Source: Haloterrigena gelatinilytica
GTDB lineage: Archaea; Halobacteriota; Halobacteria; Halobacteriales; Natrialbaceae
Direction: 5' to 3'
Assembly: GCF_013342145.1 (NCBI RefSeq)
Contig: NZ_JABUQZ010000001.1
Coordinates: 2,480,001 to 2,544,000, forward strand
DNA length: 64,000 bases
Shown piece after piece: positions 13,291 through 48,426 of the stretch. The notes below the pieces were generated by a model. It saw only the letters and a list, made by a program, of their open reading frames with translations. It was not told the origin of the DNA and searched no databases. The position numbers were made by a program, and so were the translations under genes. The first letter of the stretch is position 1; the number at the start of each line of letters is the position of its first letter.

Positions 13291-13464
13291 CCGAGTACGG
13301 GCATCGTCCGGGTCTGCTGTCTCGTCGGTCGTAGAGGGATGAAGAGACGGACTCAGTCTCCGGAAATCCGCTCGCTACAGCGACCGACGCGGTGATGGCT
13401 GTGCGCGACCGGTCGTTCGAATTCCGCCATGCCGGTTCGCTCGCCACTTCGTGGCTCGCTACAC

Positions 13465-13536
13465 GGGCGTGGCGGGATTCGAACCCACGATCAGAAGGTT
13501 AGGAACCTCCTGCCCTCTCCGCTAGGCCACACGCCC
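13465..13536 (-). tRNA. tRNA-Arg (anticodon CCU)
   Basis: On the minus strand a 72-nt cloverleaf is visible: acceptor stem GGGCGTG/CACGCCC, D-arm beginning GCCTAGC, anticodon stem GGAGG/CCTTC around the loop TTCCTAA (anticodon CCT, reading AGG), and T-arm GTGGGTTCGAATCCCGC. CCA is not encoded. No intron is present. It lies 14 bp downstream of tatA on the same strand and may be on the same transcript. Confidence 0.95.
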
Positions 13537-14697: not shown

Positions 14698-15513
14698 ATG
14701 AGCGATTCTATCGGCGACGACACCGCTCGCCGCGTTTACTCCCCCGATGCCGATCACAACTTTCCGGACGCGAAACTGAACCGAGTTCTCGAGTTCATCA
14801 CTAGCGACGAGGAGATCCAGACCTACCTCGAGGCCCAGAACGTCAACGCCGTCGACCGAATGCGGTACAACGACCACGGCGCGAAACACATCGAAATCGT
14901 CCGCAACCGCGCGCTGTGTCTCTACGACCTGCTCAAGGCCGGCGGGGTCGACTTCAACGGCGCTCGCCAGCAGGACCTCGAGGAGGCCGACGAGGCGGTC
15001 ATCATCGCGCTCGCGGCGACGCTCCACGACGTCGGTCACGTCGTTCACCGCGACCAGCACGCCTACTACTCGATCCCGCTGGCCGCCGACATCCTCGACC
15101 GAATCCTCCCCGAGTTCTACGACGTCGCCGAAACCGTCCGCATGAGGGGCGAAGTCCTCCACGCGATCCTCTGTCACCACCGCTCGGAGACGCCGCTGAC
15201 GACCGAGGCGGGCGTCATCCGCGTCGCCGACGCCCTGGACATGGAACGGGGCCGCTCCCGGATCCCCTACGAACACGGCGGTCGCGGCATCAACACCCTC
15301 TCGAGCCAGGCGATCAGCCGCGTCTCCCTTCAGGAGGGCGAGGACAGCCCCGTCATGGTCGAGATCGCCATGACCAACGCCGCCGGCGTCTACCAGGTCG
15401 ACAACCTGCTCAAGGCGAAACTCGAGGGCTCGGGCCTCGAGGAGGAGATCCGCATCGTCGCCGTCAACACGAACGAGAACCGCGACCAGTTAGTCGAGCG
15501 GATCGAGCTCTAA
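14698..15513 (+). CDS. HD-domain phosphohydrolase-like protein
   Basis: 271 residues. The HD superfamily metal-binding pattern is visible: HGAKHIEIV (first His), LHDVGHVVHRDQHA (HD pair) and ILCHHRSETPL, followed by RVADALDMERGR with the last Asp. The C-terminal ~70 residues form a separate small alpha/beta domain. HD proteins hydrolyse phosphate esters, often nucleotides; the substrate here is unknown. A T-rich tract, cttttttagc, lies ~25 bp before the start and likely serves as the TATA element of a leaderless mRNA. The 3' flank is a mosaic hairpin repeat. Confidence 0.85.
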   Translation: MSDSIGDDTARRVYSPDADHNFPDAKLNRVLEFITSDEEIQTYLEAQNVNAVDRMRYNDHGAKHIEIVRNRALCLYDLLKAGGVDFNGARQQDLEEADEAVIIALAATLHDVGHVVHRDQHAYYSIPLAADILDRILPEFYDVAETVRMRGEVLHAILCHHRSETPLTTEAGVIRVADALDMERGRSRIPYEHGGRGINTLSSQAISRVSLQEGEDSPVMVEIAMTNAAGVYQVDNLLKAKLEGSGLEEEIRIVAVNTNENRDQLVERIEL

Positions 15514-15521
15514 GAAACAAC

Positions 15522-15790
15522 CTTTTGCTCTGCGTGCGGTCGCTGCGCGACCGCACTCGGCAAAATCTCGAGAGAGCTTTGCTCTCTCGGACCTCGCGGG
15601 AGCTTCGCTCCCGCTTAGCGTTGATGAAAAGCACTCCTCCCTCCGTTCCCTCACTCCTTGCAGTCGTTCGTTCACATCGGTCGTCGGCCCGCTCGCGCCC
15701 TCCGGGCGCTCGCGGTAATCGACCGTGCAACCGTCTGCCCTCCCCCGAGTCGCGGGGTCGCCGTCATTTCGGCGACCCCGCTCCCGGCCA
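15522..15790 (+). repeat. Mosaic hairpin repeat element, copy A
   Basis: This fills most of the 313-bp gap between two convergent genes. Blocks shared with copy B (38778-39025, opposite strand) are CTTTTGCnCTGCG at 15522-15534, ctcggcaaaa at 15556-15565, a 28-29 nt core at 15621-15649, a 24-nt block at 15673-15696 and a block ending at 15752. Between them are perfect hairpins: TGCGGTCGC-tgc-GCGACCGCA (15535-15555), GAGAGAGC-ttt-GCTCTCTC, GCGGGAGC-ttc-GCTCCCGC and an 11-bp stem at about 15752-15780. No credible protein is encoded. It begins 8 bp after the upstream stop codon, so it would be transcribed as a 3' UTR. Confidence 0.8.
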
Positions 15791-38212: not shown

Positions 38213-38743
38213 ATGGCATCGCCGGTGGTGATCCCGACCGTCACGGGACAGGTTCGCGAGTTCTGGGTATTCTATCGGCGCTACACGGACACGACGATCC
38301 ACACGGCCGCGACCGCGGCGCTGACGATCTTCGGCCTGCTGATCTTCCTCGACCCGTGGTTCGCGGCGCTGGCCATCGGCTCGTACGTCGGTCCGCCCGT
38401 TGCGTTGTACCTCCTCGAGGACGAACCGGTTCCCGAAACCGAGCCCGAACCCGGGCGCGAGGGGCGGCCCGACCGCCGAACGGCAGACAGGGCTGGCCGG
38501 ACCGTCAACGCCACGCCGGCAGAATCGGACCGTCGCTCGAGCGAGCGCGTCTCCTCGAGACCACCGCCGAGCGCAACGGTCGGAGACGGCGATACTGACA
38601 CCGACAGCGATTCCGATGACGGCGACACCGATTCGGACACGGACGGCACCGATACGGACACCGATTCCGACAGCGACGGAACGGACACCGACAGCGACAG
38701 CGATTCCGACGACGGTGATACCGACTCGGATAGCGATAGTTGA
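38213..38743 (+). CDS. Membrane protein with Asp-Ser-Thr repeat tail
   Basis: 176 residues. Residues ~25-67 contain two membrane helices (AATAALTIFGLLIFLDPW and AALAIGSYVGPPVALYLL). From ~70 to the end it is low complexity: Pro/Glu/Arg, then ~55 residues made of Asp with Ser, Thr and some Gly (DTDSDSDDGDTDSDTDGT). The DNA under the tail is repetitive and may vary in length between strains. The function is unknown; the acidic tail could bind cations or remain outside as a polyanion. Confidence 0.75.
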   Translation: MASPVVIPTVTGQVREFWVFYRRYTDTTIHTAATAALTIFGLLIFLDPWFAALAIGSYVGPPVALYLLEDEPVPETEPEPGREGRPDRRTADRAGRTVNATPAESDRRSSERVSSRPPPSATVGDGDTDTDSDSDDGDTDSDTDGTDTDTDSDSDGTDTDSDSDSDDGDTDSDSDS

Positions 38744-38777
38744 CTCGAGACGGAACGGCGAGAAGTGGCCGGGAGCG

Positions 38778-39025
38778 GACGCGGCGAACCTCGCCGCGTC
38801 AGCGACCCGGGGGAGGGCAGGCCGTCGACCGAAATCTGCCGCGAGCGAAGCGAGGCGGCGAAGCCGCCTCGGGTACGCGAACGGCGCAGCCGTGAGCGAG
38901 GCCGACGGCCGAGCGAGCGGGCCGACGACCGATGTGGAGGCCCGCTCAGCGGGCCGGAACGGAGGGAGGAGTGCTTTTCATCAAAGTTTTGCCGAGGGCC
39001 GGCTTTGCCGGCCCGCAGCGCAAAA
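38778..39025 (-). repeat. Mosaic hairpin repeat element, copy B
   Basis: Reading on the minus strand, CTTTTGCGCTGC (39014-39025) starts 7 bp after the stop of the acyl-CoA dehydrogenase gene; then come GGGCCGGC-ttt-GCCGGCCC (38996-39014), the 28-29 nt core (38956-38984), hairpin GGCCCGCT-c-AGCGGGCC (38939-38955), a 24-nt block identical to copy A (38913-38936), hairpin GAGGCGGC-gaa-GCCGCCTC (38852-38870) and a final 10-bp stem GACGCGGCGA/TCGCCGCGTC (38778-38800). The blocks match copy A; the stems do not, but stay paired. Confidence 0.8.
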
Positions 39026-39031
39026 GTTTGG

Positions 39032-47828: not shown

Positions 47829-48167
47829 CTATCGAAGCTCCCGAACGAGGTCGTTGACCGTGGCCGATTTTGCCGCGTGGTCCTCGAGTCGCCAGCGGTC
47901 CCACACCACGTCGCAGACGACGTGGACGTAGAGGACGACGCCGGTCACGATCGCGAGCGATCGGCTCGCGAGCGCCAGCAGCGGGACGACGGTGCCGATG
48001 ATGAGGAGGTGGCTCAACAGCCGCGAGAGGACGCCGACGTCGCCGTGCTCGAAGATCTGCCCCTGGTCGGCGACGGCCGCGATCGGATTCGCGAGGCAGA
48101 ACCTGACGGCGTCCCAGCTCCCGGTCTTGACCCGCGCGATGAGCAAGTGATCGACGTCGATGAGCAC
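47829..48167 (-). CDS. Membrane protein, metal-dependent-hydrolase-like, with damaged or misplaced start
   Basis: From the first in-frame start codon (GTG at 48167) 112 residues follow, beginning LIDVDHLLIARVKTGSW with an Asp-x-Asp-His motif and including a membrane helix near RLLSHLLIIGTVVPLLAL. The same frame is open and protein-like upstream to 48305 (PPIYSKHHAAISLVVAGVLA, an added His-rich start and helix), but no start codon lies there. A GTG at 48307-48309 would fit if one base (48306) were removed. So the gene is either frameshifted right after its start or starts late. The stop and family (four-helix, YdjM-like) are reasonably sure. Confidence 0.6.
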   Translation of the reverse strand: MLIDVDHLLIARVKTGSWDAVRFCLANPIAAVADQGQIFEHGDVGVLSRLLSHLLIIGTVVPLLALASRSLAIVTGVVLYVHVVCDVVWDRWRLEDHAAKSATVNDLVRELR

Positions 48168-48426
48168 GCCGACGGCGGTGCCGTAGGCGACGACCGCGAC
48201 GGCGGGGAGTTCGACGCCCGAGACGCTGATCGGCGACAGTACGGCGGCGAGAACGCCGGCGACGACGAGCGAGATGGCGGCGTGGTGTTTCGAGTAGATC
48301 GGCGGTCACCTGGGCGTCGAAACCACGGCGAGGCACAAAACCGTCCCGCTGTCTCTCGATTCGTCGGCCGATCGCGACCGAGCGCGACACCCCGCGGCGC
48401 GGTTCGATCGAAGCGTCGCTGCGATC

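Follow-up and report, generated by a model that had tools for sequence, protein, structure and literature searches.

In Haloferax volcanii, T-stretches terminate transcription, and an upstream RNA hairpin can do so too (PMC7237163). The terminators described there are plain T-stretches; the first 3' UTR has a median length of 97 nt. The haloarchaeal element reported here resembles them in having a T-run shortly behind a gene, in intergenic DNA, together with hairpins, which can contribute to termination in H. volcanii; it fulfils the positional criterion for archaeal T-stretch terminators, a T-run behind the gene on the sense strand. It differs in its 5–9 nt spacing from the stop codon, its long palindrome and its second, antisense half. 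Like bacterial bidirectional intrinsic terminators, the element may serve two convergent genes, and the antisense strand of its domain III reads as a stable predicted RNA hairpin followed by GTGC-TTTT, which fulfils the bacterial-type criterion. However, its helices are broken by tandem G.A, and its module I has a T-run before the hairpin in both directions (TTTTGC-stem-GCAAAA), whereas the bacterial order is A-run, hairpin, T-run.

Three groups of repeats are also close. E. coli REPs lie just behind stop codons; REP units are about 40 nt long. As a palindromic, extragenic repeat no more than 15 nt from stop codons, the element satisfies that REP/BIME criterion, and it shares with REP/BIME its dispersal and modular assembly, but it is 200–350 nt long and has several domains, one fixed orientation and a G.A ladder. 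Haloarchaea also contain palindromic, transposase-free PATEs (PMC3119063). The element resembles these and IS605-type ends in its palindromes, its lack of a transposase gene and its occurrence in the same group of organisms; unlike them, it had no related transposon in the fetched loci, its position is tied to stop codons, and its gene sites are shared across genera. Integron attC sites lie behind stop codons, fold on the strand opposite the gene and keep their structure despite sequence variation. The element has all three properties, but it does not occur in cassette arrays and is shared across housekeeping genes. We infer that it may work like a terminator or a REP; its function is untested, and membership of either family is not shown.

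We found no description of the element in the open-access literature searched, a search that left out most subscription journals. The relevant passages on H. volcanii 3' ends (Berkemer et al.), structured RNAs (Weinberg et al.), RepRanger and Haloquadratum repeats do not describe it. Rfam (release 15, gathering score) matched only a tRNA, at 13464–13536, in the window, by which we mean the whole 64,000-nt stretch of Haloterrigena gelatinilytica DNA analysed. The original prediction, made from the sequence alone, that no named family fits is thus supported within these searches.

Anatomy of the element and its two copies in the window

We collected 206 non-identical copies, of which 189 had a recognisable module I. 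Read in gene direction, the order is stop codon, 0–5 nt, module I, an optional module II, domains IIIa and IIIb, and sometimes domain IV. The features of the two window copies, A and B, and of the genes upstream of them are as follows.

14698–15513, + strand: gene upstream of copy A, HD-domain phosphohydrolase (ORF list, Pfam PF01966)
15518–15790, + strand: copy A, read in both orientations
15518–15528, + strand: copy A, module I, 5' strand of helix P1, CAACC-TTTT-GC (covariation a-4:c-5, a-2:c-7, a+4:b6)
15535–15555, + strand: copy A, module I, hairpin P2, TGCGGTCGC-TGC-GCGACCGCA, an exchangeable stem
15560–15565, + strand: copy A, module I, 3' strand of P1, GCAAAA, the antisense-strand T4 (covariation)
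15566–15618, + strand: copy A, optional module II, inserted into the P1 bulge
15619–15623, + strand: copy A, remaining 3' strand of P1, C-GTTG, pairing with CAAC at 15518–15521 (covariation)
15627–15632, + strand: copy A, AAAAGC, second antisense T4 tract, in essentially all copies
15634–15686, − strand: copy A, domain IIIa, blocks C-G / C-G / CY-RG / Y-G X1X2
15689–15715, − strand: copy A, domain IIIb hairpin, CCGC-GA-GCGCCC-GGA-GGGCGC-GA-GCGG (antisense reading)
15733–15790, − strand: copy A, domain IV hairpin and conserved flank (GTCTGCCCTCCCCCGAGTCGC...GCTCCCGGCCA on +)
38766–39030, − strand: copy B, whole (module I, no module II, core, IIIa, IIIb, IV)
39025–39022, − strand: copy B, module I TTTT
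38978–38975, − strand: copy B, core AAAA
39032–40183, − strand: gene upstream of copy B, acyl-CoA dehydrogenase

Each copy lies on the strand of its upstream gene: copy A starts 4 nt after the stop codon of the HD-domain gene (15511–15513), and copy B starts 1 nt after that of the acyl-CoA dehydrogenase gene (39034–39032). The original prediction had claimed that A and B share a 28–29 nt core, a 24-nt block and further blocks in the same order, and that the hairpins between them differ in sequence yet are perfectly paired. Both claims held when the two copies were re-read. The 29-nt core is TTGATGAAAAGCACTCCTCCCTCCGTTCC and the 24-nt block, in the same order relative to it, is CACATCGGTCGTCGGCCCGCTCGC; at the same place, copy A has the arms TGCGGTCGC/GCGACCGCA and copy B GGGCCGGC/GCCGGCCC, both perfectly paired. 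The resemblance is far beyond chance. Domain IIIb of copy B carries an extra inserted hairpin.

A covariance model of domain III matched A at E=3e-19 and B at 4e-20, and on the antisense strand of both copies the minimum-energy fold was the covariation-derived structure (z −3.0 and −3.4). Three further window matches to this model were weak (E≥0.002) and are probably due to chance. The best of them, at 48140–48216 (E=0.0024), was rejected as a third copy because it lies inside coding sequence. Separately, the gene convergent to copy B contains a repetitive TCGGAATCGCTGTCGG-type stretch at 38500–38743.

Module I is a hairpin in which conserved TTTT/AAAA arms sit inside freely covarying pairs, with the consensus C-R-A-A-X TTTT R C / K C T G C G / hairpin P2 / C T C G G Y AAAA. 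In copy A the sense T4 tract, which never flips, is at 15523–15526. About 32 of the 189 copies have an insert at the place of module II; that of copy A forms hairpins at 15569–15589 (loop TTT) and 15596–15614 (loop TTC). Module I or II is followed by X' T T Y G, ATZ, AAAAGCACTCCTCCYTCC, a variable hairpin and RTCRGTCGTCGGCCCG, the last of which makes up domain IIIa with the preceding core. Then come hairpin IIIb and 16–19 variable nt; about half of the copies continue into domain IV, which ends in CTCCCGGCCA. Modules III and IV are ladders of 1–8 bp helices whose separators, on the antisense strand, are tandem G.A mismatches; in IIIa, GA/GA lies between the helix blocks and the variable hairpin forms the cap. 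On the same strand, the AAAAGC of copy A lies directly 3' of hairpin IIIa.

Several variants were seen. In other families a second class of IIIa has GTCACCCCCTC...GAGGGTTCCTCGGCCCG in place of CTCCTCCYTCC...RTCRGTCGTCGGCCCG (L331–L333, L276, L317, L329 and L330). Two copies (L189 and L345) have extra hairpins between AAAAGCAC and the ACTCC of the core, possibly as if modules plug in at fixed joints. At L130, a single domain IV, itself nearly palindromic, appears common to two convergent copies.

Position behind genes, distribution and exchange of stems

The element is one of gene 3' ends. For 154 of the 189 module I copies, an ORF of 100 codons or more on the same strand ends within 40 nt, whereas only 10.6% of random control positions have any ORF end within 40 nt, and 133 of the 189 start 0–5 nt after a same-strand stop codon. 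The 154 copies sit behind 40 gene groups. Among these are groups that we take, by sequence reading, to be EngB, L10e, TFS, GyrB, proteasome ATPase, thermosome and DP2, and further PurF, TrkH, Lrp-type regulators and aIF1A/aIF5B; identities were read in this way except where Pfam was run. Two tRNA-Leu genes (L194 and L306) carry the element 7–8 nt after the tRNA 3' end, so translation is not required.

The downstream neighbour, convergent in 106 cases and tandem in 88, changes while the element stays. Domains III and IV were equally frequent before tandem and convergent genes, and tail-to-tail pairs of elements, one behind each convergent gene, recur. In six genomes (L031, L044, L084, L116, L135 and L174) the element lies between gyrB and gyrA, where no TATA-like box was visible by eye in the loci inspected; sense read-through must therefore occur there, and these copies probably lie inside a gyrBA operon. 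An element was also seen behind gyrB at L304 (family f6). TATA-like boxes were found for 21% of tandem neighbours behind an element, close to the 12% at random, and for 41–45% of element-free tandem neighbours, at larger gaps; gene starts are uncertain in this comparison.

Such positions would also suit an mRNA 3'-UTR element, with hairpins that shield the message from 3' exonucleases or slow translation termination. E. coli REPs within 15 nt of the stop codon, for which such effects are reported (PMC12306157), are a precedent, and the start 0–5 nt after the stop codon, the intercistronic gyrB–gyrA copies and the ability of module I to fold equally well in sense RNA support it. Nevertheless, this explanation is unlikely: domains III and IV fold on the antisense strand, not the sense strand, and tRNA genes also carry copies.

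The genome of H. gelatinilytica holds ~28 dispersed copies. BLAST with copy A gave 26 matches in this genome (E≤1e-3) and also hit 28 of the 41 genomes sampled. The exact two-block pattern occurred in 46 of the 293 genomes of the order, with copies in Natrinema, Haloterrigena, Natronorubrum, Halovivax, Natrialba, Natronococcus and one Halobacterium; the reversed control pattern gave zero matches in the rows listed. In the genome of H. gelatinilytica, exact block matches were confined to the main contig, and plasmid copies were noted in Natronorubrum bangense and Natrinema zhouii (L157 and L175).

R1, a covariance model of the antisense strand (threshold E≤0.001), matched 225 of the 293 genomes, and a single genome had as many as 58 matches. 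At least eight families gave strong matches (E below 1e-8). Weak matches are to be discounted, since a window match at E=0.002 falls in coding sequence. Outside the family, 56 of 70 copies follow an ORF, 46 of these have a T-run 4–12 nt after the stop codon, and 11 of the 70 stand behind homologues of the 40 gene groups. Stop codon and T-run are absent from the model, so their presence validates the out-of-family matches independently. No covariance-model match was found in genomes outside the order in the phylum sample. Viral contigs had 0 exact core matches, and a virus or provirus origin was rejected on that ground.

Presence at a given gene is patchy, as tested directly at two loci. The HD gene is followed by an intact or nearly intact element in 6 of 6 genomes of the genus, domain III being unrecognisable in one. 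Elsewhere in the family the element is present behind this gene in two genomes of two other genera, degraded in one genome, and absent from most other sampled genomes and genera. Some f1 and f7 genomes carry it behind EngB, and others lack it. The likely history is one of gain and loss at favoured gene ends rather than strict inheritance. The 40 gene groups had suggested strict vertical inheritance at fixed genes, an idea that the patchiness at these two loci weakens.

Stems also move. The 93 perfect P2 hairpins have only 23 distinct arms, the commonest of which occurs at 14 different gene groups, and orthologous copies share an arm hardly more often (15.5% of cases) than unrelated copies do (11.4%). 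Entire hairpins have been swapped between loci with pairing kept, the route probably being recombination.

The main rival to termination or insulation, and one that remains possible, is that the element is a REP/BIME-like or PATE-like palindromic repeat, dispersed and semi-mobile, which enters the 3' ends of genes. Its hairpins might be kept as the single-stranded or cruciform DNA substrate of a transposase or recombinase, with any effect on the host secondary. The dispersed copies, the stems exchanged between loci and the perfect palindromes with 3-nt loops (GNA/TNC) all favour it, the PATEs are a precedent, and because presence at a given gene is patchy, a REP-like mobile origin stays a serious rival. 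Against it stand the exact placement at stop codons in fixed orientation, the confinement of 154 copies to 40 gene groups with homologues of these recurring outside the family, the strand-specific G.U bias of III/IV (see below) and the lack of an exact core in viral contigs. In the fetched loci we saw neither a duplicated target site nor a transposase-bearing parent, although no systematic search was made. Filled and empty sites showed no obvious target duplication of the kind expected of a MITE, but their flanks are too divergent to exclude one. A mobile origin may in any case be compatible with a role in termination.

Selection on base pairing and the folded strand

In a mutual-information scan of 177 distinct copies, paired columns ranked top, each of them 89–96% Watson-Crick. 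The top pairs were a-4:c-5 (GC 102, AT 45, CG 12, TA 11), a+4:b6 (GC 110, AT 40, TA 10, CG 6), c+19:d-3, c+18:d-2, a-2:c-7 and c+14:d2. We then compared gapless or near-gapless alignments with 500 shuffles, using slid partners as a control. The covariation score was 0.224 against 0.105 for III and 0.278 against 0.082 for module I, values reached in 0/500 shuffles, and slid partners scored far lower in both. Among 84 out-of-family matches, scaffold pairs that are near-invariant inside the family changed together (76:183, CG 62 and GC 16; 81:178, CG 40 and UA 39), with double changes in 21 of 21 pairs; this alignment was fitted to the model and is biased towards it. Together, the covarying pairs, the shuffles and the out-of-family support show that base pairing is under selection.

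Columns c-8 and c-1 (15619 and 15626 in copy A) also covary (CG 76, GC 31, AT 15, otherwise T with C or T). The first precedes TTYG and the second AAAAGC, and they cannot pair if P1 forms. This covariation is unexplained; it could reflect an alternative pairing, a triple or subfamily history.

Several observations bear on which strand folds. The unpaired positions between the covarying pairs of III are almost always TC opposite TC, with 494 of 506 symmetric 2x2 mismatches in IIIa and 147 of 162 in IIIb; for single columns the figure is 202 or 203 of 203. Read on the antisense strand, these mismatches become GA opposite GA, that is, tandem G.A, a motif known for its stability; IIIb with its mismatches then reads CCGC-GA-GC-GA-CC(GAA)GG-GA-GC-GA-GCGG. 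G.U pairs favour the antisense over the sense strand by 45:7 in IV and 26:10 in IIIb; module I has no such bias, and outside the family that of III is weak (26:17). The RNA folding energy of IIIa was −16.8 kcal/mol for antisense and −10.1 kcal/mol for sense, with antisense better in 70 of 70. Together, the G.U bias, the tandem G.A and the energies mark the antisense strand as the one on which III and IV fold. Folding of their sense strand was rejected because it would turn the conserved mismatches into U.C/C.U, its energies are poor and the G.U bias favours the opposite strand. Readings of TGATGA as box C/D or a kink-turn were dropped, since a box D partner is lacking and the loops that hold the G.A pairs are symmetric.

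With generic DNA parameters the strand difference in folding energy was smaller, which favours RNA over DNA for III/IV without proving it. Mutational strand bias might explain part of the G.U asymmetry; if it were the cause, it would likewise point to antisense transcription of III/IV.

An account without selection would have template switching during replication keep the palindromes perfect while gene conversion homogenises the copies. Perfect stems drawn from a shared repertoire and the absence of strand bias in module I fit it. However, it cannot explain why TC/TC mismatches are conserved between covarying pairs, why 2-bp helices covary within the mismatch ladders, why the T:A tract does not flip or why copies lie behind stop codons, and we regard it as very unlikely.

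Alternatively, III/IV could be a structured antisense non-coding RNA that binds protein or acts in trans, with module I as its 3' end. The antisense fold tolerates G.U, long invariant stretches lie between helices, and large structured RNAs are typically conserved to such a degree. Against this, IV is missing from about half of the copies, and tens of copies per genome, each fixed to another gene, would be unusual for a trans-acting RNA. We also found no conserved antisense promoter, and one beyond domain IV was rejected on that ground. This explanation is unlikely as well.

The original prediction had also proposed selection on an RNA or on DNA secondary structure, to be refuted if hits were limited to the two loci or if stems in further copies were unpaired. 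Selection on structure is strongly supported by the compensatory pairs and controls above, and neither refutation was met, the H. gelatinilytica genome alone holding ~28 copies. Whether module I folds as RNA or as DNA is undecided; in III/IV, the G.U bias speaks for RNA. Three refinements are needed: the folded strand of III and IV is opposite to the one originally read, many of the hairpin differences are wholesale swaps from a limited stem repertoire rather than base-by-base drift, and the element belongs to gene 3' ends.

T-runs and the termination reading

The four P1 T:A pairs stay T:A in about 95–98% of copies, while the flanking pairs covary and use up to four pair types. Outside the family the run is T4–T8, always with T on the sense side. 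In L278 (family f10) and L383 (f7), a T8 or T7 run has an A6 partner run, with the modules otherwise recognisable. The sense T-run is set within a long modular palindrome, 5–9 nt behind the stop codon; only 0–3.6% of element-free genes have TTTT 4–10 nt after the stop codon. The core AAAAGC supplies a second antisense T-run, a few nt behind helix IIIa.

We infer that the element is most likely a bidirectional transcription-termination/insulation element at gene 3' borders; this reading leads its rivals but falls slightly short of even odds, and function is untested, with no transcript data available. It would work as follows. A polymerase leaving the gene would reach the sense T4–T8 tract 5–9 nt after the stop codon and terminate or pause. 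A polymerase coming from the other side would transcribe IV and III, whose RNA would fold into G.A-ladder hairpins immediately before GTGC-TTTT, and release would occur there and at the next T-run, that of module I. Antisense transcription would thereby be kept out of the gene. The T-runs on both strands, the placement behind genes including tRNA genes, the tail-to-tail pairs and the antisense hairpin followed by a T-run make termination/insulation the best explanation.

Several points speak against it. They are the gyrB–gyrA position without a visible TATA-like box, the few TATA-like boxes before tandem neighbours, the shortness of T4 for an archaeal terminator, the equal frequency of III/IV before tandem and convergent genes, the absence of a conserved antisense promoter and the weak G.U bias of III outside the family.

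A bolder reading is that the element is a previously unrecognised, order-wide class of gene punctuation in haloarchaea; on balance, we lean against it. Its content would be that RNA hairpins in which Watson-Crick blocks alternate with tandem sheared G.A stop antisense transcription at gene 3' borders. If true, it would mean an archaeal hairpin-dependent terminator, in contrast to the common view that a T-run alone suffices.

Tens of copies per genome stand across haloarchaea precisely behind the stop codons of core genes (L10e, TFS, gyrB, EngB, proteasome ATPase, thermosome and DNA polymerase D) and are apparently undescribed. If the element terminates or insulates, archaea would have in it a structured bidirectional punctuation signal that could readily serve as a genetic tool; a mobile element would instead be a repeat that recognises gene ends when choosing its sites. 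In both cases, the ladder of repeated tandem G.A is an unusual architecture for a natural nucleic acid, and hundreds of covarying examples of it are available.
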